Below are positions 21-34,952 of a stretch of 34,952 nucleotides of DNA, piece by piece. How positions within the stretch are numbered: the stretch's first letter is position 1; the number at the start of each line of letters is the position of its first letter. Source of the stretch: a virus; IMG/VR virus record IMGVR_UViG_3300010970_000061, positions 1 to 34,952 of that record; one strand, given 5' to 3'. A program made the position numbers and the translations under genes. A model generated the notes under the pieces. It searched no databases and was not told the origin of the DNA. It saw only the letters and a program-made list of their open reading frames with translations.

Positions 21-55
21 TTTTAAATCTCCTAAGTGGTTAGGGTTAATTAAAA
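1..55. repeat. 55-bp exact terminal repeat, left copy (right copy 34385-34439)
   Basis: The first 55 bases are identical to 34385-34439. They hold the first codons and ribosome binding site of the 216-residue gene and the T-rich side of a terminator. From base 56 (versus 34440) the copies diverge but remain alignable to the right end of the window. An exact 55-base identity that starts at base 1 is what a de Bruijn assembler with k=55 leaves at a branch node; that is an inference, not something the sequence proves. Confidence 0.9.
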
Positions 56-86
56 GAAAAAGGGGTCAGCTTTTTGAGCCAACCCC
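51..86 (-). terminator. Rho-independent terminator after the decoration gene
   Basis: On the minus strand a 9-bp stem (62-70 with 78-86, including two G-T pairs) with a 7-nt loop is followed by a T-rich run. It lies between the decoration gene and the next gene of the same strand, so it probably limits read-through from the abundant capsid transcripts into the tail genes. The equivalent element at 34431-34471 has a different stem sequence with the same pairing. Confidence 0.75.
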
Positions 87-108
87 CTGTTTTTACTACA
101 TTTTGCTA

Positions 109-402
109 TTAAACGCTAGTTCCTGCGAACCAGCCATAATCGCCTGATGCCATTGAAGCACCTGATACATAAGTACCAGCACCCAAAGTTACTTGGAATG
201 TAGAAGCGTTAACAATGCAAGTTGCTGTAGAAGCTGCAATAGCCGCACCAGCTTGTGCAAATACATAACGCTTACCATCAGAACCAAATGTTTCTGCGCC
301 TAAAGGCCCAAAAGTTGGTACTGCTGTGCCAGCAGAGTTAGTGTTAGTAGTGGTTGTGTTAACTAAGTCAACGCCACTAATGGGGAGAGTGCTATATGCC
401 AT
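109..402 (-). CDS. Putative capsid decoration/cement protein (variant A)
   Basis: A 97-residue protein directly downstream of the major capsid gene, rich in Gly, Ala, Thr and Ser, without membrane segments. Small Gly/Thr-rich beta proteins in this position in tailed phages are usually capsid decoration proteins; the assignment rests on position and composition, not on a recognised domain. Start ATG at 402 has AAGGA about 9 nt upstream. The gene at 34494-34790 encodes a 98-residue homologue about 70% identical (69 matches counted by eye), with differences spread along the chain but the N-terminus, a central GSDG segment and the C-terminal MASGDYGWF conserved. A terminator follows at once. Confidence 0.6.
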   Translation of the reverse strand: MAYSTLPISGVDLVNTTTTNTNSAGTAVPTFGPLGAETFGSDGKRYVFAQAGAAIAASTATCIVNASTFQVTLGAGTYVSGASMASGDYGWFAGTSV

Positions 403-430
403 GATAATTTTCCTTTAGTTAGTCGGTTGA

Positions 431-1414
431 TTAAGCTGTACCTGTCAATACACCTTGCAAGAAGCTGTTTGAGCAAGTCAAGTTACCAGCCCAACCATAC
501 AACTTAACAATCGCGTCTTGATTGATAGACTGGCGTTCACCACCGATAGGTACAAAGTTGCGTTCTTTGTGTGGGCGTAGGAAGATGTAGTTTGTATTCA
601 AGAAATACATATAGTTAGCAGTTTCCTGCGCGCCATAACCACCACCTAATACCACATCAGCGGACATACCACCACCGTAGAACTTCAGGGAAGCAAAACC
701 TGCTGCGCCTTCATCTACACCAGCAATACGCTGAATAGCTTGCAAAGAAGCTACATAACGCTGATACAAAGTGTTACCAGCAACAATAATGTCAACCTTA
801 TCTGTACCACGAACTGACTTAATTGCAGCAGAAGTCATAGCTGCTTGGATTACTGTAGAAGAATCAGCACCAGTGGAAGATTGGTTTTGCCAAAATGTCC
901 AGTTAGCACGATTGATACCACCGTATGTACCAGTTGTGTTTGATGTTGGGACAGCAGCGGCCAAACCAGTGATGTTCTTACCACCGTTACCAGTACCATC
1001 GCCATACAAGTCGCCTGAAATGCGGTTAAGCAAACGGGCTTCAGAAACTTGCATACGACCATCTAACAGGTCAATGATTGCTTCTTTAGAGCTGTTTTGT
1101 AACATTTCCAAGCCAGACATTGTTACAGAGTCAGCATATTGGGTAATGCTGAACTGTGCAGCACTGATAGGGCTGTCAGGAGTAATGTTCAATACCTCAT
1201 AGCCGCTATATGAATTAGCGTTATTAGTATTTGGATCGTTGTACATGATTTCTTCAAGAATCACATTACCACCGCTGAAAGGTCGGACATTGCCCTTGCT
1301 GTTCAAGCGTTGAAGAATCGCGTTGTTTTGTGTTAAGTTGTCTGCCAATACTCCGCTACGGCTTTGAATGGTGGTAGCGATAATATCGGTAATTGCGCTA
1401 TTAGCGAATGCCAT
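431..1414 (-). CDS. Major capsid protein
   Basis: A 327-residue protein of the size of HK97-fold major capsid proteins, downstream of an acidic scaffold-like gene and upstream of a decoration-type gene, the canonical capsid order. The N-terminus (MAFANSAITDIIATTI) opens as many podophage coat proteins do; the middle carries a run of Gly/Asn-rich loops and the C-terminal part a GGERQSINQDAIVKLYGW segment. No cleavable delta domain is visible, in keeping with a separate scaffold. The last 38 residues recur unchanged at 34836-34952 although the DNA there differs at 22 of 117 bases. AAAGGAAAT precedes the ATG. Confidence 0.88.
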   Translation of the reverse strand: MAFANSAITDIIATTIQSRSGVLADNLTQNNAILQRLNSKGNVRPFSGGNVILEEIMYNDPNTNNANSYSGYEVLNITPDSPISAAQFSITQYADSVTMSGLEMLQNSSKEAIIDLLDGRMQVSEARLLNRISGDLYGDGTGNGGKNITGLAAAVPTSNTTGTYGGINRANWTFWQNQSSTGADSSTVIQAAMTSAAIKSVRGTDKVDIIVAGNTLYQRYVASLQAIQRIAGVDEGAAGFASLKFYGGGMSADVVLGGGYGAQETANYMYFLNTNYIFLRPHKERNFVPIGGERQSINQDAIVKLYGWAGNLTCSNSFLQGVLTGTA

Positions 1415-1437
1415 GATATTTCCTTTATTAAATTAAG

Positions 1438-2538
1438 TTAAACCCGACCGCCTTCTGCATCGGCTAAAGAAGCCATTAACAGGGACCGTCTATCCTTTGC
1501 ATCTGCCTTGTTTACTTGGCCGCTAGGTGTAACGGACTTTGGACTAACAGCAGTTGCTTTGGCCTTTGCTACTTGCTGTGCCTTAGATGCTTGGGTACTA
1601 GCCGATTTCAAGAGTCTATCTTGTTCTAGCTTGTAAGCTTCATCATTCATACGCACTGCTTTGGCATAAGCCGATTCTAGGTCTTGGGCTAAACCCCTCT
1701 CAAGTAATTGAGCCATATCTTCCCGAACCATATCAAAGTGCGGAAACCGCGCCTTGTCGCTACTTACACGGCTAATTTCATTACTTAACCGTGCATTTTC
1801 CTCTTGCTCCCGTATTGCCGACAGTTGTTGCACTTGCTGCTGTGTTGCTTGCAATTGCTGCATTAACTGCTGTTGGTACGGGTCAACATACGCCTGTTCA
1901 GGCATTTGTAAGCTATCTGAATTTAATTGTATTCCATAATCTGCGGCTAGTCTATGAAACATTTGCACCTTCTGCTCATAGGGTGCTTTGCTTAGAACCA
2001 TGTGGGCGCGGCCTAAGTTATTAATCCAAGCTACAGGGTGAATACCTTGCGATTGCAGTTCGGGTACAAACGGGCCAATAGCTTCTGTTAGCTGGCGCGC
2101 ATTGTCAGCTTCTGCTTTGTAGGCAGAAACACCTTTTTTGTATTCAGCCTCACGCTGGTTAGCATATTCAGCAAACTTAAAGAATTCTTGCTCACTTAGC
2201 TGCTTGCCGCCTTTTAGCTTATCCCATACTTCTACATATTCCTTTTTCCATGTAGTAGGGCGTTTTACTTCTTCTTCATTAGCATCACTAGCTTCTGCAG
2301 CCAGTTCAGGTTCTTCAGGGGTATGGTCTTGGCTACTGGCTTCTTCTTGCTTACCTTTGAAACGGCCTTTTTCGTCACGGTTACTGTTTTCTTCGCTACC
2401 TTCTTGGCTGGCGTTTTCGGCTTGGATGGGGTCGTCATTGACTTCTATTTCCTTTTCAATAGGGGCTTCTAAAGTACCTTCTTCAGCTTGTTCTAATGCA
2501 GATTCAAGCAATTCTCTACGGTCTAATTCTTCACTCAT
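1438..2538 (-). CDS. Putative capsid scaffolding protein
   Basis: A 366-residue, very hydrophilic protein immediately upstream of the major capsid gene. Residues 1-100 are strongly acidic (Glu/Asp-rich, with many Ser), the centre is mixed charged, residues about 215-245 are Gln-rich (QQQLMQQLQATQQQVQQL) and predicted coiled coil, and the C-terminal third is Ala/Lys-rich. This composition, lack of Cys and position match internal scaffolds of podophages, which guide procapsid assembly and then leave. No sequence motif is diagnostic, so the call is positional plus compositional. Confidence 0.75.
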   Translation of the reverse strand: MSEELDRRELLESALEQAEEGTLEAPIEKEIEVNDDPIQAENASQEGSEENSNRDEKGRFKGKQEEASSQDHTPEEPELAAEASDANEEEVKRPTTWKKEYVEVWDKLKGGKQLSEQEFFKFAEYANQREAEYKKGVSAYKAEADNARQLTEAIGPFVPELQSQGIHPVAWINNLGRAHMVLSKAPYEQKVQMFHRLAADYGIQLNSDSLQMPEQAYVDPYQQQLMQQLQATQQQVQQLSAIREQEENARLSNEISRVSSDKARFPHFDMVREDMAQLLERGLAQDLESAYAKAVRMNDEAYKLEQDRLLKSASTQASKAQQVAKAKATAVSPKSVTPSGQVNKADAKDRRSLLMASLADAEGGRV

Positions 2539-2548
2539 TTAATGCTCC

Positions 2549-2941
2549 TTATCTAAGTTTTGCGTATGCAAGTTCTGCAATTTGGCGTTTGCGTGATTCG
2601 TTTTCTGCCCTGCTTAAAGTGTGCTTTTTCTGTTCCATTTGCACATCATTGCCTATTTCAATACAGTTGTTGCGTTTTAGGTTTTCACGGTGGCTAGAAC
2701 GGCTGCCTACCCATTGACCATCAGCCATGCTTATATGGCCTTCAATATCAGGCATAACCATTGGGGCTTCTTTTGGGGTCATTTCCAGCTTTTGCTTCCA
2801 TGCTTCTTCAGCTTCAGGGCCTTCAAATGGTAAGTTCCAGTAAGCAAGGTACTTTTCCCTATCATCATATTGGGTTGGGTCGTATTCTTCATGGTCAACC
2901 TTGCAGTGGTGGCAGGTAACCGTAATTTTCACTAATGCCAT
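2549..2941 (-). CDS. Small protein with N-terminal Cys/His zinc-finger-like motif
   Basis: A 130-residue protein. Residues 9-17 hold CHHCKVDHE, a Cys-X2-Cys-type knuckle preceded by a short beta strand, which resembles the opening of FmdB-type zinc ribbons, although the second Cys pair is missing. The middle segment (GQWVGSRSSHRENLKRNNCIE, here split for length at residue level) contains His, Arg and Cys and looks like a conserved element found in phage proteins next to capsid genes. The C-terminus is basic and helical. It overlaps the glycosyltransferase-like stop codon by one base, so the two are translated together. Function unknown. Confidence 0.6.
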   Translation of the reverse strand: MALVKITVTCHHCKVDHEEYDPTQYDDREKYLAYWNLPFEGPEAEEAWKQKLEMTPKEAPMVMPDIEGHISMADGQWVGSRSSHRENLKRNNCIEIGNDVQMEQKKHTLSRAENESRKRQIAELAYAKLR

Positions 2942-3849
2942 TACATTCTCCTTATAAGTTCAGGTACTTTATGGTATTCATGTGGGCGTAGGGCTATAAC
3001 ACTGTCGTACCAGCGCGCATTTTTCCAACGCCAACAAACAAATTCTTCTTTAGGTAGCAAAACAATGGTTTTAACGCCCAATGCACCAGCAAGGTGGGCT
3101 GTTCCAGTATCTACAGTAACAACACCTTTACAGGCTTTTATGTGGGCTGCAGACTTAACCCAATCTTTTTGCCAGCCATCATTAGGTAATGGGTGAAATA
3201 AGCCTTCTGTTTTAGGGTTTAGGCTGTAACAGTCAGGCCCAGTTAGGGCTTCCATTTCGCGCATATCCATACTTTTGATGTAATACAGTATTTGCTTAGA
3301 AGCTTCCCAATTAACGCCAATTTTGGCTGGAATATTGCTAGGCTGGGCGTGTAAGTAGCCTTCAGAACCTACAATTTTGTCTTTTCCTAGCGGAAATAGG
3401 GCTTTTACTGAAGGGTGGGCTAAAGAAATGTAATAAGGCAGGGACATTGACCCTATCCAGTAGTCGCAAGCTTCTGCATCACCAGTGCCAATTTCATTTG
3501 TGAATACATCAACGCATTCAAGCTGGCCAAGTAGGTGGTGTAGGCTGCTTTCTTGCAAAACTACTACCTTTGCCGCGCCCATAGCCTTTAATGCAGGTAA
3601 AAAACGGGCAAATTGCAATATATCGCCAAAGCCTTGTTCCATTTGTACCGCAATAGACTTGCCAATTAAGCTTTCACCGCGCCAAACTGGTACTTTTAGG
3701 GAAGGGCCAACACCGTTTGCTTGTTCTGCAATGATTTCAGGATGCCAGCGGTATTCAAATAAACGAAAACCAGCTTCATAACGGCCAGCGTGTAAGTGGT
3801 CGTATGCCTTTTTGTATTCAGCGTGTGGGTTTAATGTAGCAGTAGAAAT
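2941..3849 (-). CDS. TPR-linked GT9-like glycosyltransferase, no standard start codon
   Basis: The reading frame is open from 3858 to the stop at 2941. It reads through a TPR-like helix pair (AYDHLHAGRYEAGFRLFEYRW), then VPVWRGESLIGKSIAVQMEQ, GFGDILQFARFLP and, near the C-terminus, VVTVDTGTAHLAGALGVKT, the hallmark of GT9/heptosyltransferase-fold proteins with N-terminal TPR. The first ATG is at 3642, after the homology has begun, and no ATG, GTG, TTG or CTG lies upstream in frame. An ATT at 3849 has GAGGA 6 nt before it and gives 302 residues; this start is my proposal. It overlaps the upstream gene by 19 bases. A -1 frameshift or a damaged gene are alternatives. Substrate unknown; virion or DNA-base glycosylation are both possible. 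Confidence 0.6.
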   Translation of the reverse strand: MSTATLNPHAEYKKAYDHLHAGRYEAGFRLFEYRWHPEIIAEQANGVGPSLKVPVWRGESLIGKSIAVQMEQGFGDILQFARFLPALKAMGAAKVVVLQESSLHHLLGQLECVDVFTNEIGTGDAEACDYWIGSMSLPYYISLAHPSVKALFPLGKDKIVGSEGYLHAQPSNIPAKIGVNWEASKQILYYIKSMDMREMEALTGPDCYSLNPKTEGLFHPLPNDGWQKDWVKSAAHIKACKGVVTVDTGTAHLAGALGVKTIVLLPKEEFVCWRWKNARWYDSVIALRPHEYHKVPELIRRM

Positions 3850-4304
3850 ACGGATTCCTCATCGTCTAGTTCCTCTAGGCGTTTGGCTTCCATATATATC
3901 AATTGCTGTTGAATAAGCAATTGTTGGTTTCTGTAAGCTACTGCCGCAAGGATGTTATCTCTTTGTCGTTCAAGGTAGCTTATAGACCGCTGTAATTCTT
4001 CTGTTTCAGCTAACGGTATATCAGCTAGAACCTCTTGTTTGGATTGTACTTTAGGTTGCTTAACTTTTGCAACAGGGTCAATTAAGTTTTTAAAGGCTTG
4101 TTTGCGTGAATCGTTAGCAGCCTTTGTAGCTTTTTCTAGTAAACGCTGCCGTTCAGCTATTTTTGCTGATAATTTGCGTAAACGCTTTAAATCTTCTTGT
4201 GTCCAGCTTGCATCATCCCCACCCCCAAGTTCAGGGGCAGGTGATGTGTTTATTTGAAATGCGTTATTTTGAAACGCATTAGCTTGAAAAGCTGTAGAAA
4301 ACAT
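3831..4304 (-). CDS. Coiled-coil protein with AFQ-repeat N-terminus
   Basis: A 157-residue protein beginning with a short repeat (AFQANAFQNNAFQ) often seen at the start of phage and prophage virion-region proteins, followed by a Gly/Asp linker and a long charged helical region (about residues 35-150) that should form a coiled coil. It begins at the last base of the preceding gene and its 3' end overlaps the open frame of the glycosyltransferase-like protein. Function unknown; position suggests a virion or assembly role. Confidence 0.65.
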   Translation of the reverse strand: MFSTAFQANAFQNNAFQINTSPAPELGGGDDASWTQEDLKRLRKLSAKIAERQRLLEKATKAANDSRKQAFKNLIDPVAKVKQPKVQSKQEVLADIPLAETEELQRSISYLERQRDNILAAVAYRNQQLLIQQQLIYMEAKRLEELDDEESVFLLLH

Positions 4305-4516
4305 TACTGCGTTGTTTCAGGCTTTAAAGATTCTTCCAAACGCTTAATAAAAGCTTCCTTGCCTACTGCTAATTGGTCAAGGTTAAACTGTGCAGAACCC
4401 ATTTTGCGGTCTAAATCTACGCAATGGTTAAACAGGGCTTGCTGTTCTTTGGTTAAATCTTCAAACAAATATTCAACTTCGTTGATGGTAATAGGGGTCT
4501 TTTTATCTTGTCCCAT
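4304..4516 (-). CDS. DUF6447-like small phage protein
   Basis: A 70-residue protein with the pattern ITINEVEYLFEDLTKEQQAL then DLDRKMGSAQFNLDQLAVG, which I recognise as a family of small phage proteins annotated DUF6447. It is predicted to be a beta-hairpin followed by two helices. It shares its last base with the first base of the next gene (stop/start overlap), preceded by AGGAG. Function unknown; it sits in the small-gene group between fibres and capsid genes. Confidence 0.65.
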   Translation of the reverse strand: MGQDKKTPITINEVEYLFEDLTKEQQALFNHCVDLDRKMGSAQFNLDQLAVGKEAFIKRLEESLKPETTQ

Positions 4517-4533
4517 GCCATTCTCCTAAAAAT

Positions 4534-4553
4534 TAACCTGAAAGCGCAGGTTA
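4534..4553 (-). terminator. Terminator-like hairpin in a 37-nt gap
   Basis: A perfect 7-bp stem (TAACCTG with CAGGTTA, 6-nt loop) is followed on the minus strand by AATTTTT, then at once by the AGGAG of the next gene. The T-run is short, so it is likely a weak terminator or an mRNA processing/stability hairpin. It may tune expression of the genes downstream of the fibres. Confidence 0.4.
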
Positions 4554-4763
4554 TTACGCTACTGCATCTTGTAGTGGCTTTAAATCTTCTGTAGTCCAAA
4601 AGTCTTTAGCCAGCATAATTTCAAGGTGTTCCTTGTTACGCTTAACTGTGTCTGCCCAATCAGCATCTTCCATGCCTTCAGGTTGTCCAGCTTCTAGCAA
4701 AGCTACAGAATCAAGGGCAGCTTTGTAGTGTTGTGCAATTTGTTCTGCGGTAATTTCAATCAT
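4554..4763 (-). CDS. Small helical protein, function unknown
   Basis: A 69-residue, acidic, largely helical protein (MIEITAEQIAQHYKAALDSV...) ending with WTTEDLKPLQDAVA. The C-terminal motif resembles segments of other small fibre-linked phage proteins and could be a domain that contacts the fibre, but this is speculation. It lies 2 bases after the preceding gene, in the same transcription unit. Confidence 0.6.
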   Translation of the reverse strand: MIEITAEQIAQHYKAALDSVALLEAGQPEGMEDADWADTVKRNKEHLEIMLAKDFWTTEDLKPLQDAVA

Positions 4764-9056: not shown

Positions 9057-11335
9057 TATTGAACCCCAATAATTTTGCCATCAGCACCGCGTACTACTTG
9101 TTTTGGCCTATTTTGGTTTTGGTTAATGGAATTTACTAAATCACCTAATGCTAGTGTCATTTGTTCATTGCTTTGGCTAATTGCATCTGCAATAGGTTTT
9201 AATGGGTGTTCCATAGAAGCGGCCATAGCTTGTTCAGTTAGGTAAGCTTCTTCCCCTGTAGATTCATCTGAACCAATACGGGCAACTTCAATTTTCGCGC
9301 CATTGTTAATATGGGCTAAAAGAACCTGTGTATTACGTTCTGTGTTCATCTTCATTTGGGCTACACGCATTTCCATTTCAGCTTGGCGTTGGTTGCGTTC
9401 ATCTTCCAAACGGAATTTAAGGTTATTTTCCTGTGCTTGGTACTCTTGCTTGGCTTTTTCCAGTTCCATTTGCATTTGCATTCTTTGCTGTTCCAAAGCC
9501 ATATCTTGCTGGGCTTTAGCTTGTGCAGCCTGCATTTTGGCTTGCTCAATTTGCATTTGCATCTGCATTTTTTGCTGTTCAGGTGTAGGCGGTTTAGGTT
9601 GGCCTTCCATCTGTTTAGCTTGCTGCCTAAACTTATCTGCTGTTTCGTCAATAAGGCCTTCCATGCCTTTACCAGCTTTAAATGCGGTTACGCCAAACTT
9701 CAGCATTTCCATAAGCAATGGGGTAAGTTCAGGGGCAGTATTAGCTACTGGCAGGGCAGTTTGCATAAACTGGCTTACTGCGGTTAGGAATTGAACGCGG
9801 TCTTGCTTTTCTTGTTCTTCATCCTGATAAATCATGGAATCCGTAGTTACTTCAATACGGAAGTTTTTAGCAGGTTCATCTTTAAGCAGTTGTAATGCTT
9901 GTGGAATTAAGGCTTGGTCTTGTGGGCTTAACTGCATTGCACCACTAATTTTTACTATGGTGTCATCAGTGAAATGCTGGCAAATAATCTGCGCTTTAAT
10001 TTGTAACAGGGCAGTAGCAAAGTCCACTACAGCGTGTTGCATAGTCTTTAAACGCCCTGAAGCGTTGTTAGACTTAATAATTTGTGCGCCTAGTGTTTCG
10101 TTAGGGTCTGTTTGGCCGCGCTGAATGTCGGCAATACCCATAATTTCATAAATTTGGCCTTTAACTTGGTCCATAGCTTGGTAGCTGCTTTGTAATGCTG
10201 CAGCAATTGGGCCAATGTCAACAAGGTTAATAGCACCAACCATACCGCCTTTTTCGCTAAAGGCTGCGTAGTTCTTAATAGGTAACAGGGCGTTGTTATC
10301 GCCTTCTGTAAACAAACGCTGCAAGCTAGGTTCTGAAGCATCGTACACGCCACGCACTTTAAGGGCTTGAATAAAGCCATCAATGCGGTCTGCCAGTGTA
10401 TCTAGCTGCCTTGCTTGGTCTTGGTATAGAACAAAGTCAGGTACAGGTATTAGGCTGTCTGTTGTTAATGTAGAAAACAATGGTTTTGGGCAAGGCCAAA
10501 AGTTTTCAAGTTGTAATGGGTCATCACGGGTGTCAAGAATTTTGCCCATGCTTTTGGATAACCATAGCACTTGGCCACTTGTTTTATCCCAAATTTCATA
10601 AACGCAGGCTTCTTTTGCGCCTTCGCCCATTTTTTCATTGAAGCTTTTAGAAGTTTCAGGTTTAGTGTCTAGCGGTATTTGGCCACCTAGTTCTTCACCA
10701 AAGCGTTCTACCAGTGCTGGGCGGCCCATATACACTTTACGCCATACAGCGGTTACTTCTTCCCATGTACGGGCAACGGTTAAGCCAAAGTCACGCCAAT
10801 GTACATAGTCAACAGGGGCGCATTCGTACTCAATGCGTTCTTCGTTTTCACGGTAAATGCCGCCTTCTGTTTCAGCTTCATCAATATCTTCTGTAATTTG
10901 GTAGCCATCATCAGGTGCGCCTTCACCCATTCCAGCTTCTTGGCCAACAATGTGTGGTTCATAACGCACCCAAGCTGTACCGCGCCCACCTAGCAAGCGG
11001 TCTTGTACGCTTTGCTTCATGGCACTGGAATAGTCCCCGTAGTGTTCAATTTCGTATTCAAGGGCGCGTTCTAGCATCATAGAAGCTACACGGCCAATTG
11101 GGTCATTGTCCCTAAATCTACGGCTTACATCAGGGCGCGGAAGCCTAGCAAATACTGCTGGGGTAATGGTTTGTACATTTGACCAAAGAATATTGAACTT
11201 GGCGTTAGGGTTGTTTCTGCTTCGGGAATCATCACGATACCGCTTGGTAATTTTGTCTGAACGGCCTTCCCATTCCTTAAAAGTGCGTTCATACTGGGCT
11301 ATGCAGTTGTACCAATCTTGGTATGTGTGTTCCAT
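9056..11335 (-). CDS. Portal protein
   Basis: A 759-residue protein right after the large terminase, the usual portal position, and within the size range of P22-type portals. The N-terminal 350 residues hold the conserved-looking core (NVQTITPAVFARLPRPDV, then DRLLGGRGTAWVRYEP, then FWPCPKPLFSTLTTDSLIPV). A segment GIADIQRGQTDPNETLGAQ near residue 410-430 is typical of this family. From about residue 570 to 690 the chain is extremely rich in Gln, Met, Lys and Ala and helical, comparable to the helical barrel of P22 portal. It forms the dodecameric DNA channel. Confidence 0.88.
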   Translation of the reverse strand: MEHTYQDWYNCIAQYERTFKEWEGRSDKITKRYRDDSRSRNNPNAKFNILWSNVQTITPAVFARLPRPDVSRRFRDNDPIGRVASMMLERALEYEIEHYGDYSSAMKQSVQDRLLGGRGTAWVRYEPHIVGQEAGMGEGAPDDGYQITEDIDEAETEGGIYRENEERIEYECAPVDYVHWRDFGLTVARTWEEVTAVWRKVYMGRPALVERFGEELGGQIPLDTKPETSKSFNEKMGEGAKEACVYEIWDKTSGQVLWLSKSMGKILDTRDDPLQLENFWPCPKPLFSTLTTDSLIPVPDFVLYQDQARQLDTLADRIDGFIQALKVRGVYDASEPSLQRLFTEGDNNALLPIKNYAAFSEKGGMVGAINLVDIGPIAAALQSSYQAMDQVKGQIYEIMGIADIQRGQTDPNETLGAQIIKSNNASGRLKTMQHAVVDFATALLQIKAQIICQHFTDDTIVKISGAMQLSPQDQALIPQALQLLKDEPAKNFRIEVTTDSMIYQDEEQEKQDRVQFLTAVSQFMQTALPVANTAPELTPLLMEMLKFGVTAFKAGKGMEGLIDETADKFRQQAKQMEGQPKPPTPEQQKMQMQMQIEQAKMQAAQAKAQQDMALEQQRMQMQMELEKAKQEYQAQENNLKFRLEDERNQRQAEMEMRVAQMKMNTERNTQVLLAHINNGAKIEVARIGSDESTGEEAYLTEQAMAASMEHPLKPIADAISQSNEQMTLALGDLVNSINQNQNRPKQVVRGADGKIIGVQ

Positions 11336-18785: not shown

Positions 18786-19041
18786 GTGTTTTTTAATTTA
18801 TTTTGTAGGTATCTACCCTAATATATTTAATTAGTTGCTTTTTGGTGAACGCACCTAGCCTAACCTAAGTGCCTTCAATAGTTGCTTTTCGGAGCCACTA
18901 CACCCGTAAGACTTGCGCGGTACAGGCTCTTACTTCGCCACCTGTTTATGTGCTTTTACATCCGCTATCCCTTAGTAACACTTGTACCTTAACCGCTAAT
19001 GGTTTTGACCGCCCAGTTAAGGCCATCAAGGAATAGACAAT
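18786..19041. other. Noncoding stretch with inverted and direct repeats
   Basis: No credible gene. It contains an AT-rich part (18791-18834), a direct repeat AGTTGCTTTT(T/C)GG at 18833-18845 and 18880-18892, an inverted pair GTAAGA/TCTTAC with a 16-nt loop (minus strand, near 18908-18936), and CCTTAAC (18987-18993)/GTTAAGG (19016-19022), which carries operator half-sites in reversed order. It could be a replication origin, a regulatory site, or encode a small RNA; the sequence alone does not decide. Confidence 0.45.
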
Positions 19042-28873: not shown

Positions 28874-30414
28874 AATTTAGCGTAGTCCACCATTTTGTAG
28901 CCATCAGCACGGTTAATAATTGCTTCAGGTACAACTTGTTCAACTTCTTGAGCCATAACACCAATATGCTTGCCATAGCCAGCTTCAGCTTTAAATTCAG
29001 GCTTGTATTCGTATTCATAAACAGGCAAGCCGTTAGGTAACCAGCCAATTGCCTTAATGTTTTCTTTAGTACGAATGTCAGAAAGAATAGCTGCCGCGCC
29101 CAAAGTACCGCCCAAGCCCATTAAGCCTTGATTTGCACTAGCTTGCGCTGCTTGTTGTGCGTTGTAACCAGCCATGTTGTATTGGCCTTGCGCTTGTGCT
29201 GCGCTTAAATAGTCAGCACCAGTAGTTGTGGCTTGGTTAGCTGGGTTAACAAATTGTGCGCCTGTAACCTGTGAGCCTGAACGCACCGCATTAAGGGTAT
29301 TAAGCGGTTCATTACGCATATAGGACAATTCACCAAAGCCTTGTTGCCGCGCTTGGTTAGCCAAGTTAGCATTTTGCATTTGGTTAGCAAACTGTTGCTG
29401 TGCAATAGCATTGTTAGCTTGTTGCTGGGCTTGTTGGTTGCTATACATTTGTTGCAATGCAGGGTTATTAGCTGCTTGTGCAGCCAATTGGTTCTGATAT
29501 TGCTGTTGCATAGCTTGGTTATTAAAGCCTTGACCAGCCAACAAATTAGTGTAGTTCTGTTGTGCAGCTTGGTTAGAAAGGCCTGTATTAGCCAATTGGT
29601 TTTGATTCTGCTGGGTAAGGGCTTGGTTAGTAAACTGGCCACCCTGCAATGATTGGTTAAACAAGTTTTGGCCAATGCCTTGTGCTTGCAATTGTGCTTG
29701 GGTTAACAAGTCATTCTGTTGCATTCCAAGTGAAGCTTTGGCGCGGTTATAGGCTTCAGTTCCAGCAGCTAAACCTTGATTTGCTAACTTAGCATCCAAA
29801 GTTTTTTGCTGTACATCCATTTGTGGCTGCAAGCGTTGCATCATTAGCTGGCTTGCTCTATCCCAGCCTGCCATGCCTTGATTTTCTAAACCAGTTTGTA
29901 ACTGTGGGCCAGCACCCATACCTTGTGCTTGTTGCGCGCCCTGTACACCGTACATTTCAGGGCCTTGACCTATTGTTTGTAAATTAGCTTGGCCGCTAAG
30001 TTGTTGCAAATTTGGCTTGCCAGCAGAACTTTGCAATGCAGGTAAGCTTGATGTACTAAACGGGTTAGCCATCATTCCTTGTACATAATTTAAACCAGTT
30101 GACTGTAACTGCCCCAAGCCTTTGCTTGTAGCAATATCCATGTTGTACAGTTCTTGCTGGTCAGGGCTTAAAGACTGTGTAGCAGTCCAAGTAGGGTTGC
30201 CGTATGGGTCTGCGCCTGTAATAGCGTAGTTTAAGTTGCCATAAGGCGTAACTTGATTAACGCGGTTTGCAGCCGTAGCTTGCCGTGCAGCATCTAAGTT
30301 ACCTGAAGCAGTAGCTTGCGCTGCCGCTGTGTAATTTGGTGCTGCTGGTGCGCTAGGGGGCGAACCAAATATTGCGTTTGTAATTGGACTAAGTAAACCG
30401 CCACCGCCACCCAT
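28870..30414 (-). CDS. Gln/Asn-rich virion protein with C-terminal S74 chaperone domain
   Basis: 514 residues. After a Gly-rich start, residues 30-110 contain YTAAAQATASGNLDAARQAT, then comes a long Gln/Asn/Ala-rich repetitive coil (about 120-430; repeats of the form NQAxQQxYxNxL). The last 72 residues (443-514) are a Peptidase_S74/intramolecular chaperone domain: SDIRTKENI with Ser445-Asp446, the self-cleavage position, then GVMAQEVEQVVPEAI and DGYKMVDYAKL. Such domains usually assist trimerisation of tail spikes; here it sits on a coil protein between the GNAT gene and the ejection genes. Confidence 0.7.
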   Translation of the reverse strand: MGGGGGLLSPITNAIFGSPPSAPAAPNYTAAAQATASGNLDAARQATAANRVNQVTPYGNLNYAITGADPYGNPTWTATQSLSPDQQELYNMDIATSKGLGQLQSTGLNYVQGMMANPFSTSSLPALQSSAGKPNLQQLSGQANLQTIGQGPEMYGVQGAQQAQGMGAGPQLQTGLENQGMAGWDRASQLMMQRLQPQMDVQQKTLDAKLANQGLAAGTEAYNRAKASLGMQQNDLLTQAQLQAQGIGQNLFNQSLQGGQFTNQALTQQNQNQLANTGLSNQAAQQNYTNLLAGQGFNNQAMQQQYQNQLAAQAANNPALQQMYSNQQAQQQANNAIAQQQFANQMQNANLANQARQQGFGELSYMRNEPLNTLNAVRSGSQVTGAQFVNPANQATTTGADYLSAAQAQGQYNMAGYNAQQAAQASANQGLMGLGGTLGAAAILSDIRTKENIKAIGWLPNGLPVYEYEYKPEFKAEAGYGKHIGVMAQEVEQVVPEAIINRADGYKMVDYAKL

Positions 30415-30415
30415 A

Positions 30416-30847
30416 TCATGCTCCTTTTATCGGGGCGTTTATGTCGAGCCATCGACAATTTTCACGCCTCATTGCTAATATAACTAAATCCCCATCTATA
30501 TGGGCATCTTCGATATACGCCTTATCAATAAAGCCTAAGTGTCGGTTTAACCTTAATGCTTCTTCATTCGTTGAAGATACTGTCGCTAGTATAACCTTAA
30601 CACCTAGTTTATTAAAGGGGTAATCAAAACACGCCCACAATAAATCTTTGCTAATCCAGTTGGGTACTAATGCGCCATTGTGCATACAGCAGCTTTTGTC
30701 TTGAAAGTTGGTATATGCCACTACTGCGCCAATTTCCCCATCTATTTCTTGCCCAATACACATGGTATTGTCATCAAACTTTACGCCTAAAATGTTGCCG
30801 AGCCACGCCCTTAAATGCGGTTGGTTTTCTGTTGTAACCCTACGCAT
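30416..30847 (-). CDS. GNAT-fold N-acetyltransferase
   Basis: I choose the ATG at 30847 (143 residues), overlapping the previous stop as TAATG; an upstream start at 30892 lies inside the tail stabilisation gene. GNAT features: GAVVAYTNFQDKS in the beta-sheet, VKVILATVSSTNEEALRLNR then HLGFI (the acetyl-CoA region with the typical N-x-x-A...GF pattern). Substrate unknown. GNAT proteins at this place in podophage tail gene clusters recur and may act on virion or host proteins. Confidence 0.7.
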   Translation of the reverse strand: MRRVTTENQPHLRAWLGNILGVKFDDNTMCIGQEIDGEIGAVVAYTNFQDKSCCMHNGALVPNWISKDLLWACFDYPFNKLGVKVILATVSSTNEEALRLNRHLGFIDKAYIEDAHIDGDLVILAMRRENCRWLDINAPIKGA

Positions 30848-32847
30848 TACAGTACGCCACCCCTTTCCATAACATAATCGGTTGATGCCCAATGCAACTC
30901 AATATTTCTGCTGGCCACATTTAAGTTAATTGAACCAGCAAAACCTAAACCAGTAACACCTTGCCAGATTTTAGTAGTAATTAAGCCGCCTGACCAGTTT
31001 GCAGCATCCCAGCGTGAAGCATCCCATACGCCATCTGTTAGGGTACTTGGGTTAAATTGCACCTGCCCAAGCTGGCTTTGTGTGTCAAAGTCAACAGAAA
31101 GGCCGCAAACTACGCTAGGTACACCACCTGTAGATTGCAAAATAGGGCGAACCATCATAAAACGCTTTAACTGACCGGGACTATCAAAGTAACTGTAAGC
31201 CTGTTGTGCTGTAGCTTCTATGTTTGCGCCATTGTCTGCAAGGCTTGTGTAGAAAGTGCCTACTACGCCATCACCGCCAAAGTGCATATCTGCATCGCCT
31301 GAAACTTCCCAACAATAAGCTTGAATGCCAGTAAAACGCGCCCAAGACTTAGTAATAGTGTGCATTACATACTGTTCCATGCCCGTACTGGTAGGAATAG
31401 ACAAAATAAGCATATTTTCACCAGCAAAATAGTTAATTTGCCAGCCATTTAATGCGTAATACAGGGTTGCAGCTTGGCTTACTGCAAAGTAAATTTTGTC
31501 TGTAAGGTTTACACGGGGGTCTAAACGGCTAGATTGCAGCGCAGAAGCTAATGGCACTAAACCATCTTGCGTTAATAGCAATAAATCACCTGACCATTTG
31601 AAAAAGCATCTACGGCTAAAGGTTTGGCCCAATTGCCATACACCTTTTAATGCCCAAGTATCTACAGAATCAGGGTCAGTACCGTTATAAACAATAACTT
31701 CACCCATGCTAGTAACAAATACTGCGTAATCATCAGCACCTTGACCTGCATCCAGTGTCCAAGTACCCATTGCTTGCAAATAACCAGCATTACGGGCAAT
31801 TCCACCAAAATATAGGGGTGAAGCTGCACCGCCAATAGAATCTACAGGCAAATACCAGCAGTCTAAAGTGTCTTTTTGCGTGAAATACAGGCGGTTTTTA
31901 AACAGGTTTACATTAATAAATGTGTTGCTGTTAACGCCAGTAATACCAACCGTTGTGTAAGAACCTACTACAGTAGCATTTGTAGCTGGGGTAGAAGCCA
32001 TTGCATAGGTAAATGTGTTGCTGCCTGTAGCTTCAATAACATAAGTACCGTTATATTCTGCTGGGCTAGCACCTGTAACAGTTACGCGGTTACCATCAAC
32101 CAAACCGTGTGCAGCAGCAGTAGTTACTGTAGCTACCGCGCCCACATGGGTAATTGTGCTAATTGTTTGTGAAGTAGTGGTAGTTGCTATGTAAAACCAT
32201 GCGCTGCCATCGTAAATCATTACTGGGTCAACACCGTTACAAGCAACCATATAGTGGCCGCCAGTGTTAGTCATGTTGACGTGTTGTATTTGGTCGCTTT
32301 GAATGCCAGTAAATACAGGTACGGCAGGGTTTACTTTAGCTTCATAAATGGTATCGCCTGCAACAGCAAATAGCTTGTAAGTGCCTATTTCTGTGTAATT
32401 CATTAGCGTATTAATAGGCGTATCAATACCTATTTCATAATCGCCTACAACAGTAGCGTTACTAGCTGGCACTGCTGACATTAAATAAGTAAATGAAGTG
32501 CTGTTAACTACTGTAATGGTGTAAACACCGTTGTAATCAGAAGGTGTACAGCCTGCAATAGCTACTTGGTCGCCAGTTGCAAGGCCATGCGCTGAAGCGG
32601 TTGTTAGCGTTGCTACAGCATCTACATGGGTAATGGTGCTAATGGTTACGGCTGCATCAGGGCTTGTTAACAAGCTTACTTGTGTCCAGCCTTTACGCAT
32701 AGTTACATCAGTAGGGGTAGGAAACCAATTAACAAGCTGAACCGCATCTAAAGGGTTCATTGCCGCTTGGGAATCCCTAGCATTCCAGCCACCAATAGGG
32801 GCAGGTACGGAAGTTGTATTAGCTGAAAACTTTTTAGCTACAGCCAT
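30847..32847 (-). CDS. P22 gp10-like tail stabilisation protein with two Ig-like inserts
   Basis: 666 residues. The N-terminus (PIGGWNARDSQAAMNPLDAV then QLVNWFPTPTDVTMRKGW) is diagnostic of the phage stabilisation protein family (P22 gp10), which closes the tail hub. Two copies of a TISTITHVxAVATxTTAxAHGL ... YNGxYxI ... TNATVVGxY module of about 72 residues (near 66-138 and 227-300) interrupt it, looking like a duplicated beta-sandwich insert. The rest is strand-rich. Confidence 0.8.
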   Translation of the reverse strand: MAVAKKFSANTTSVPAPIGGWNARDSQAAMNPLDAVQLVNWFPTPTDVTMRKGWTQVSLLTSPDAAVTISTITHVDAVATLTTASAHGLATGDQVAIAGCTPSDYNGVYTITVVNSTSFTYLMSAVPASNATVVGDYEIGIDTPINTLMNYTEIGTYKLFAVAGDTIYEAKVNPAVPVFTGIQSDQIQHVNMTNTGGHYMVACNGVDPVMIYDGSAWFYIATTTTSQTISTITHVGAVATVTTAAAHGLVDGNRVTVTGASPAEYNGTYVIEATGSNTFTYAMASTPATNATVVGSYTTVGITGVNSNTFINVNLFKNRLYFTQKDTLDCWYLPVDSIGGAASPLYFGGIARNAGYLQAMGTWTLDAGQGADDYAVFVTSMGEVIVYNGTDPDSVDTWALKGVWQLGQTFSRRCFFKWSGDLLLLTQDGLVPLASALQSSRLDPRVNLTDKIYFAVSQAATLYYALNGWQINYFAGENMLILSIPTSTGMEQYVMHTITKSWARFTGIQAYCWEVSGDADMHFGGDGVVGTFYTSLADNGANIEATAQQAYSYFDSPGQLKRFMMVRPILQSTGGVPSVVCGLSVDFDTQSQLGQVQFNPSTLTDGVWDASRWDAANWSGGLITTKIWQGVTGLGFAGSINLNVASRNIELHWASTDYVMERGGVL

Positions 32848-32849
32848 GA

Positions 32850-33752
32850 TTAACTACCGTAGCCAGTATCAGGAATATTAGCCCAGCCAATAAGCACGGC
32901 ACTTGGTTGTGGTGCAAATGAAAGGGTTGCAGAACCTTTGTCGTTAGCTTTAGCTACATTTAAGTAGCGTTGGTAGTCTTGTTGCAAAGAAGTAGTGTCA
33001 AAACTCTTAATTTGGAAGTATTTAAGCTTAGTTAATATGGCTACTACTGAATCATCCAATACTGTTGTATCTGAATCGGCAGTAAAGCTGTTTTTAACTT
33101 CACCTGTTGCACTGCGTACAAAGCCTTTAGAACGGTATTCAAAGCCTAAGTATTCTTGGGTGTTATATGGTGGCCAAATTTGAAATTCGTTACCCAAAAT
33201 ACGCCAACGGACACGCGGCCCAGTTGAAATATAGCCAGACTTTAACCACTGCCATTGTTGTGCATCTACAGGCCCTAACATTTGCCAATGCTTGGTTTTG
33301 TCCCAATGTGTATTGTCTGTAATGGTTTCGTAATCAGGCGGTAGTGGGTATTTAGTTCTACTAAAAGTAACCGTTCCACCAATACTTGTAGCAGAAGCTA
33401 GTTGTGTGGTGGTAACGGTTGACCCTGTAACGCTTGAAACATAAGTATCTTGTGGAATACTTGTACCTACAATGGAATAGTTATTATCTAAACCTGTTGT
33501 ATCTGCCACATTTAGCAGGTCATAGGTGTTGTTAATAGTATCGCAAGTAGTAGTAACTGCTGTGGTGTAGAAACGGTACTCTAATTCCAATGCTTGCCAA
33601 TCATGCTCTTTTACAAGGTCGTAACCAGCACGGTTCATCAGCGCAAGAATCTGTTGCACATCTTGGCTAGTGTTACCAACAACATAAGTTGGTACGGCAA
33701 GGTTTAGTTCAGAAGTTACCTGCTGAACCAATTGGAGTAGGGTGGATGACAT
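32850..33752 (-). CDS. P22 gp4-like head-tail adaptor
   Basis: 300 residues. N-terminal helical part (LLQLVQQVTSELNLAVPTYV, DVQQILALMNRAGYDLVKEH, DWQALE) and a middle with YPLPPDYETITDNTHWDKTK are the features of the head-completion/adaptor family that joins portal and tail. A 60-residue Thr/Ser-rich insert (near 65-130) resembles the beta inserts of the next gene. Located between the 216-residue protein and the gp10-like gene, as expected. Confidence 0.75.
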   Translation of the reverse strand: MSSTLLQLVQQVTSELNLAVPTYVVGNTSQDVQQILALMNRAGYDLVKEHDWQALELEYRFYTTAVTTTCDTINNTYDLLNVADTTGLDNNYSIVGTSIPQDTYVSSVTGSTVTTTQLASATSIGGTVTFSRTKYPLPPDYETITDNTHWDKTKHWQMLGPVDAQQWQWLKSGYISTGPRVRWRILGNEFQIWPPYNTQEYLGFEYRSKGFVRSATGEVKNSFTADSDTTVLDDSVVAILTKLKYFQIKSFDTTSLQQDYQRYLNVAKANDKGSATLSFAPQPSAVLIGWANIPDTGYGS

Positions 33753-33753
33753 T

Positions 33754-34404
33754 TTAGGCTTCCTCTGTGGCTACCGTTTTCTGTTTACGGGGTTTCTTTT
33801 CACCTACAGCAGCAAGTATAGCGGCCATTTGTTCTTGCATTGCGGCCAGCTTCGCATCTGTTTCTGCCTTCATTTTAGCAGTTTCTAACTCTTTATTGGC
33901 AAGTTCTTCTTTCAAAGCGTTAATTTCTTGTTCGCGTTTGTCAGTTTCTGCTGCTGTAGTAGCTAGGTTTAAGAATGCTTTAGCTTTGTCGCGGAATGCG
34001 TAAGGGGACATACCAGCCGCCATACCCATGCGTTGTAATTGGCCATCTGAAGCACCTGCAACAGATTCTACGGTTTTAAACTTTAATGCGCGTAGTTCTT
34101 CTGCTTGGCTTTTGCTTACTAAAGGCCATTCTGATAAGGGCGTACCAACTACTTCTTGATCATCTGCGCCTACACGGTTTTGGTATTGCGCCCAGTGAAT
34201 AGGAAAACGCACTTTATGGTTATTTAACGCATAAGTGTCAATTTCGGTTAGGGTATCGCCAGCTACGCAAATGTGTACAAAGTCAAATTCTTTGTAAATA
34301 TCACGGCCAGCATCTAATGATTCTTGTTCTTGTTTAACTGCGCGCTTGTAAAAGCGTACTTGTAAGCGTGAATCCGCGCCTTGTTCGTCTGAAGGTAATG
34401 CCAT
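33754..34404 (-). CDS. Virion-associated protein with C-terminal coiled coil
   Basis: 216 residues. Residues 1-130 form a conserved globular part (DEQGADSRLQVRFYKRAVKQ, FPIHWAQYQNR, GTPLSEWPLVS, LRALKFKTVESVAGASDGQL, GMSPYAFRDKAKAFL) that I recognise from many podo- and siphophage head gene clusters without knowing its function; the GTPLSEWP and TVE..A segments are the constant ones. Residues 145-205 form a Lys/Glu/Ala coiled coil. AGGAG precedes the ATG. The first codons are repeated at window bases 1-20. Confidence 0.7.
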   Translation of the reverse strand: MALPSDEQGADSRLQVRFYKRAVKQEQESLDAGRDIYKEFDFVHICVAGDTLTEIDTYALNNHKVRFPIHWAQYQNRVGADDQEVVGTPLSEWPLVSKSQAEELRALKFKTVESVAGASDGQLQRMGMAAGMSPYAFRDKAKAFLNLATTAAETDKREQEINALKEELANKELETAKMKAETDAKLAAMQEQMAAILAAVGEKKPRKQKTVATEEA

Positions 34405-34439
34405 TTTTAAATCTCCTAAGTGGTTAGGGTTAATTAAAA
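34385..34439. repeat. 55-bp exact repeat, right copy
   Basis: Identical to bases 1-55. From 34440 on, the sequence runs parallel to 56 onward with about 80% identity where alignable. Confidence 0.9.
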
Positions 34440-34471
34440 TTAAAAAAGGGGCTACCAGTTAAGGTAACCCC
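34431..34471 (-). terminator. Terminator, variant B
   Basis: 9-bp stem on the minus strand (34448-34456 with 34463-34471, one G-T pair, 6-nt loop) followed by TTTTTTAATTTT. Equivalent to 51-86 but the inner stem differs (ACC/GGT here, GGC/GCT there), so pairing is kept while bases change. Confidence 0.75.
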
Positions 34472-34493
34472 CTGTTTTTACTACATTTTGCTA

Positions 34494-34790
34494 TTAAACA
34501 CTAGCCTTGCTAAACCAGCCATAATCGCCTGAAGCCATTGTAGTTGCAGGTGCAAGGTATGTACCAGCAGAAGCAGTAGCTACAAAAGTAGAAGCGTTAA
34601 TGGAGCAAGTTGCTGTTGAAGCTGTAATAGCCTCGCCAGCTTTAGCGAACACATAACGGAAGCCGTCTGAACCAAATGTTTCTAGTCCGAGTGGCCCGAT
34701 TGTTGGGATCGCAGTACCAGCAGAGTTCAAGTTAACTTCAGCTAAGTTAACCAAATCAATACCAGCGATAGGGAGCAATGAATATGCCAT
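34494..34790 (-). CDS. Putative capsid decoration/cement protein (variant B)
   Basis: 98 residues, homologous to the protein at 109-402 (69 identical positions counted by eye). Most changes lie at residues 15-20 and 70-85, i.e. probable surface loops, with one inserted residue. AAGGAAAATTATC upstream of the ATG is the same as in variant A. Either the allele of a co-occurring strain or a genomic duplicate. Confidence 0.65.
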   Translation of the reverse strand: MAYSLLPIAGIDLVNLAEVNLNSAGTAIPTIGPLGLETFGSDGFRYVFAKAGEAITASTATCSINASTFVATASAGTYLAPATTMASGDYGWFSKASV

Positions 34791-34835
34791 GATAATTTTC
34801 CTTTTCTATTCGGTTTAAGTTATGTTAGTGGGTAC

Positions 34836-34952
34836 TTAAGCTGTACCTGTTAACACACCTTGTAGGAATGAGTTGGAGCAAGTTAAATTGCCAGCCCAGC
34901 CATACAATTTTACGATCGCATCTTGGTTAATAGATTGACGCTCGCCACCGAT
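34836..34952 (-). CDS. Partial major capsid protein, C-terminal 38 residues (variant B)
   Basis: The frame from the window edge to the stop at 34836 gives 38 residues identical to the last 38 of the major capsid protein, though 22 of 117 bases differ, all synonymously. The gene continues past the window. Confirms that 34440-34952 is a diverged copy of 56-547. Confidence 0.8.
   Translation of the reverse strand: MGGERQSINQDAIVKLYGWAGNLTCSNSFLQGVLTGTA

Follow-up and report, generated by a model that had tools for sequence, protein, structure and literature searches.

What does it mean when a virus record ends on a second version of its own beginning? The window studied here is the whole of IMG/VR record IMGVR_UViG_3300010970_000061 (G000; 34,952 bp). 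Direct comparison and a repeat scan both find bases 1-55 identical to bases 34385-34439, a 55-base exact match. The 513 bases that remain after 34439 repeat 56-547 in a diverged form, and the alignment of 1-547 with 34385-34952 gives 75.4% identity. The second copy contains a terminator-like hairpin, a small structural gene and the C-terminus of the capsid gene, in the same order as the left copy. Below, the shared 55-mer is called V, the version found at the left end variant A and that at the right end variant B. The features at the two ends are as follows.

1-55, strand not given: first copy of V, at the contig start; exact match to 34385-34439.
62-87, minus strand: terminator-like hairpin of variant A, after the small structural gene; fold -18 kcal/mol, z -2.98.
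109-402, minus strand: small structural (decoration-like) gene, variant A, 97 aa; an ORF that follows the capsid gene in relatives.
431-1414, minus strand: major capsid gene, complete, 327 aa; phrog_9953 major head protein, E 6.7e-95.
32850-33752, minus strand: p300 tail protein, next gene after p216; phrog_6013 tail protein, E 6.8e-41.
33754-34404, minus strand: p216, which follows the small structural gene in relatives; phrog_20268, E 2.9e-18, and relatives' order.
34385-34439, strand not given: second copy of V, where the path would leave the first variant; exact match, with an identity step at its edge.
34448-34472, minus strand: terminator-like hairpin of variant B, different stem at the same place; fold -20 kcal/mol, z -3.51.
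34494-34790, minus strand: small structural gene, variant B, 98 aa; an ORF matching phrog_26298 virion structural protein, E 0.0008.
34836-34952, minus strand: second capsid allele, C-terminal 38 codons and stop by translation, cut by the contig end; 95/117 bases identical to 431-547.

V is the sole exact 55-base stretch common to both variants in the overlap. On the minus strand, its first copy carries the leader, the ribosome-binding site and the first 20 bases of p216. One other exact match of at least 25 bases is found between the two window ends (34 bp, 81-114 identical to 34466-34499). Each hairpin has a GC stem followed by U's, with the shuffle z-scores listed above. The small structural proteins of the two copies are 70% identical (tblastn). 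The 22 base changes between the capsid ends are all silent, and both ends translate to the same 38 residues and stop (38/38). A sequence-only reading of this DNA had described the exact repeat, the common order followed by divergence, the protein identity of about 70% and the silent capsid changes, and all of these are borne out by the comparisons above. It had also pointed out that the match starts at the very first base. This is true, with the refinement that the match begins at base 1 because the contig begins there, and the identity may extend further to the left.

The portal and the large terminase were also recognised in the window (PHROG; Terminase_6N in Pfam). Variant A of the small structural gene gave no PHROG or Pfam match. 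The name "decoration gene" used in the earlier reading is suggested by the place and size of the gene and by the one weak PHROG match, which concerns the right copy only. The nearest named phages found are Myxococcus phage Mx8 and Stenotrophomonas phage BUCT555, whose capsid proteins are 51-52% and whose portals are 32-34% identical to those of the window. Both are distant from the window and served only for placing genes. The capsid scan of genome contigs gave 3 distant relatives (48-69%) and no prophage of the window's phage group. A Betaproteobacteria-1 RNA (RF02932) is present on the minus strand at 18902-19023, with 92.6 bits for a cut-off of 49.4, and hints at a betaproteobacterial host.

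The arrangement of these genes was compared with that of related phages. A capsid scan of viral contigs gave at least 591 confirmed stretches, the best 80 of which were used as loci. In 76 of these 80 best loci, the capsid gene, the small gene and p216 occur in this order, once each, and p300 comes next in most. The remaining four (L007, L066, L071 and L079) stop before p216. Two further scans yielded 246 loci with a complete small gene and p216, corresponding to 135 distinct sequences. Among the matches listed, one small gene is found at all 135 distinct small-gene/p216 junctions and a single p216 match at 134 of them; at the remaining junction, in L063, one p216 is broken into neighbouring pieces. 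The gap between the small gene and p216 is 77-103 bases in relatives and 86-89 in 81 of the 135, again among the matches listed. According to the ORF coordinates, the gap in the window is 89 bp at the right end (variant B) and 88 bp when the circle is closed on variant A.

Closure of the window as a 34,384-bp circle restores the relatives' order of capsid, small gene, p216 and p300 with a normal gap, and this order runs across the closed ends. The circular map of about 34,384 bp suggested earlier is therefore supported, since only the wrapped window gives the single-copy order of the relatives and the 88-bp closure gap lies within their 77-103 range. No exact match to a 34-base word from the variant A branch was found in the viral contigs, from which records very near the window may be absent. 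Closure on variant A is thus without confirmation from an independent identical contig.

The second lap belongs to a variant that exists in other contigs. Variant B is about 95-97% identical to L003, L006 and L008 (96.2-96.7% for the small gene and spacer) and 90.8% identical to L014, and its small structural protein is 94-99% identical at the amino acid level to those of L003, L006 and L014. An exact 34-base word across the variant B branch was found in 3 viral contigs. Binned by 55 bases, the identity of the right copy to L003, L006 and L008 amounts to 96-98% in the sequence immediately preceding V and 98% within V, then drops to 75-76% immediately beyond it. The p216 genes of these three loci are 99.2-99.5% identical to one another, and that of the window is 84% identical to them. 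Together, the identity step at V and the 84% value of p216 place the two sides of V in different lineages. Few start positions in the window body (330 of 34,330) begin an exact 55-base word that also occurs in any of 300 loci; for the tail, the count is 180 of 514. The capsid ends do not appear to share the lineage split seen at V. Within the final 117 bases of the capsid gene, L003, L008 and L014 match the left copy better (89.7-90.6%) than the right one (80.3-84.6%), and L006 alone is closer to the right copy. The identity of p216 alone does not settle the variant: its four nearest relatives (92% at the amino acid level) all carry B-type small genes, yet the nucleotide identity is only 84%.

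We propose with great confidence, on the strength of these comparisons, that the record would be one 34,384-bp circular lap followed by V and 513 bases of a co-occurring second variant, the whole being an effect of assembly. Bases 1-34384 would go once round a phage genome with a circular map, and a de Bruijn graph built with k = 55 would branch at V. The contig would start at V on variant A and circle back to V. From this second V, the path would exit on variant B and end in the conserved capsid gene. We infer both the value of k and that the assembler, rather than the phage, made the jump. The metaSPAdes default stops at 55, and 123 is a MEGAHIT setting used at JGI. Against k = 55, the exact end repeats of relatives measure 98-127 bp, though they come from other samples. 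Since read pairs spanning 55 bp would normally guide the assembler, it may have taken variant B after p216 because the two are really linked.

That 55 bases is a common assembler k-mer size, as the earlier reading had remarked, agrees with an extended-data legend of CheckV, where end repeats are described as clustering at 55, 77 and 99 bp, likely assembler k-mers from broken circular templates (PMC8116208). In the COBRA paper, contigs broken at repeats are described as carrying end sequences of length maxK (PMC10914622). As in the CheckV "DTR" contigs (PMC8116208), the window has an assembler-like repeat length (55), a circular map and an arbitrary break point. It differs from them in that 513 bases of a diverged copy separate its repeat from the right end, which is why an exact end-repeat test misses this record: the end overlap of the window itself is 0, the 55-mer recurring inside the right end. 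As in contigs broken by strain variation in COBRA (PMC10914622), a shared word at the contig end marks a variant branch, with the difference that the window comes to one and the same branch point at its start and again when a lap is complete. With the concatenated genomes of IMG/VR (CheckV Extended Data Fig. 9 legend), the window has in common more than one genome lap per contig. As that legend describes them, these repeat the same genome, whereas the second lap of the window makes up about 1.6% of the record and is a different variant.

Related records show comparable ends. Thirty-two of them, picked mostly for length (14 + 18), were read whole. Exact end repeats were found in six (G005, 99 bp; G006, 123 bp; G013, 123 bp; G014, 127 bp; G016, 123 bp; G024, 98 bp), near-identical end overlaps of 124-180 bp at 96.7-99.4% in five (G004, G017, G018, G021 and G022), long diverged overlaps in two (G008 and G015) and a 24-base match near the end in one (G011). 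An end overlap is absent in 18 of the 32. The end positions could be placed in five of the six exact-repeat records, and they fall in five different genes or gaps of one circular order: in p216 (G005), near p662a (G006), in the portal gene (G013), before p514 (G014) and between portal and scaffold (G016). Because relatives have one circular order and ends at varied places, the window, with p216 at the right edge and the small gene at the left, can be read as a circle cut at V.

The two long diverged overlaps are overruns. G008 (45,505 bp) has a lap of about 35 kb and an overrun of 10.2 kb; 35061-39717 matches 27-4713 at 75%. A match at 92% joins its last 618 bases to 9628-10242, and the record closes with an exact 127-bp word that is also present at 10116-10242. 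With its exact word at the end, G008 is the mirror image of the window, which has the exact word at the start and the diverged part at the end. G015 (37,031 bp) has a lap of about 30 kb and an overrun of about 6.4 kb; its first 2.8 kb matches 30586-33415 at 67-70%, and a capsid N-terminus lies at 2-142 in addition to the capsid gene at 29493-30727. This record overruns into a more distant phage. The window is the third overrun case, so that three of the 33 records of the group, window included, enter a diverged variant, and an exact end-repeat test reports none of these overruns. The single-copy order of relatives, circular closure, these two other overruns and the occurrence of variant B in other contigs all support the view, already favoured by the sequence-only reading, that the right end is an assembly variant.

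That reading had also considered a true tandem duplication of the capsid and small structural genes in one phage, later diverged. The open frames of both copies, their hairpins and the purifying pattern of the capsid ends (38/38 residues, 22 silent changes) would suit such a history, but no relative has a second copy (0 of 135 distinct junctions, among the matches listed), the contig ends within the second copy with no unique DNA after it, and L003, L006, L008 and L014 carry variant B as their only copy. The duplication is thus not supported and we regard it as highly improbable. Natural terminal redundancy of packaged phage DNA deserves hardly more than a mention as an explanation of the whole. 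Headful packaging would agree with a circular map whose ends vary in place; the redundant ends of one molecule are, however, identical copies, and the 75% identity of the window past the first 55 bases refutes terminal redundancy as the cause of the diverged part.

A rival of another kind holds that the p216-variant B join belongs to a real recombinant phage, small-gene variants being exchanged by homologous recombination in conserved flanks like V; the record would then mix two real recombinant genomes. We consider this rather unlikely, although the sequence may fit either an assembler path switch or a natural recombinant joined at V. More generally, and tentatively, the small gene after the capsid gene might be an exchangeable cassette, with alleles differing at some 15-40% of bases that swap between co-circulating phages. 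Its flanks would be V and the capsid gene end, and there is some chance, a minor one, that the right end of the window caught such a swap and that p216-variant B is a real genome. Linkage was analysed in 94 records (4371 pairs) with capsid, small gene, p216 and p300 each covered to at least 93% in one piece, duplicates removed; this set leaves out capsid genes with inserts. Small-gene identity shows almost no linkage to that of p216 (Spearman 0.07) and a weak one to that of the capsid gene (0.17), for comparison with 0.50 between p216 and p300 and 0.52 between capsid and p300. Natural swapping is kept as a candidate because of this near absence of linkage between the small gene and its neighbours. 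Individual cases point the same way: L042 compared with L056 and L058 shows 96-97% in capsid, 98-99% in p216 and 96-97% in p300, but only 85-86% in the small gene, and L003 and L014 are 100% identical in V and 84% just after it. The B-type small genes of the four nearest p216 relatives would also fit a genuine p216-B linkage. On the other hand, every swap-like case is a metagenome contig that could be a path switch itself, the pairs are not independent, and faster divergence of the short small gene lowers the correlation. Close pairs stay linked, since 49 of the 64 pairs of the 94-record set with small genes at least 95% identical also have p216 at least 95% identical. Natural recombination would refine rather than replace the overrun view, because the circular map and two strains are still needed.

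With an overrun of the assembly into a sister strain as the preferred reading, a false tandem duplication is removed from the record, which should be flagged as an overrun rather than a gene duplication and probably comprises a complete lap of the genome with 568 bases added. As a finding on this phage genome, this is ordinary. It offers a simple screen for overrun records, in which the first bases recur exactly near the contig end and sequences then diverge. Should natural allele exchange be shown, surface variation would have a hot spot in the small structural gene that is open to testing.

Several relatives carry interruptions of their own. The major capsid gene of G015, G017, G020, G022, G024 and G029 is interrupted by inserts of about 230-285 bp (examples are L285 11974-12256, L272 1754-1998 and L277 2210-2454). 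They are located at codon 53/54 and/or codon 71/72, with both sites occupied in G029; the insert of G015 is not cleanly placed by the alignment. Cleanly placed inserts follow a T and end in G. In a lax search, the L285 insert matched Rfam Intron_gpI with 43.6 bits (E 4e-10, cut-off 50). Lax searches over the whole inserts of L277 and L272 found no group I intron, and Rfam at the gathering threshold gave no match in the six loci with capsid inserts. The T/G boundaries and the L285 match give the inserts the appearance of small group I introns. Phages LittleE and Tuc2009 are known to have introns in their capsid genes (PMC3706429). A third capsid interruption, of about 190 bp near codons 295-309, is seen in L136 (1669-1862) and L181 (282-475). 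The 4.7-kb contig L007 has a second fragment of a scaffold-like gene (3-236 and 2620-3714). Finally, a reversed 166-aa ORF lies between p216 and p300 in L024 (4878-5378) and L060 (12019-12519), and L068 has a gap of similar size at this place. From its look, the ORF of L024 and L060 may be an HNH-type homing endonuclease.
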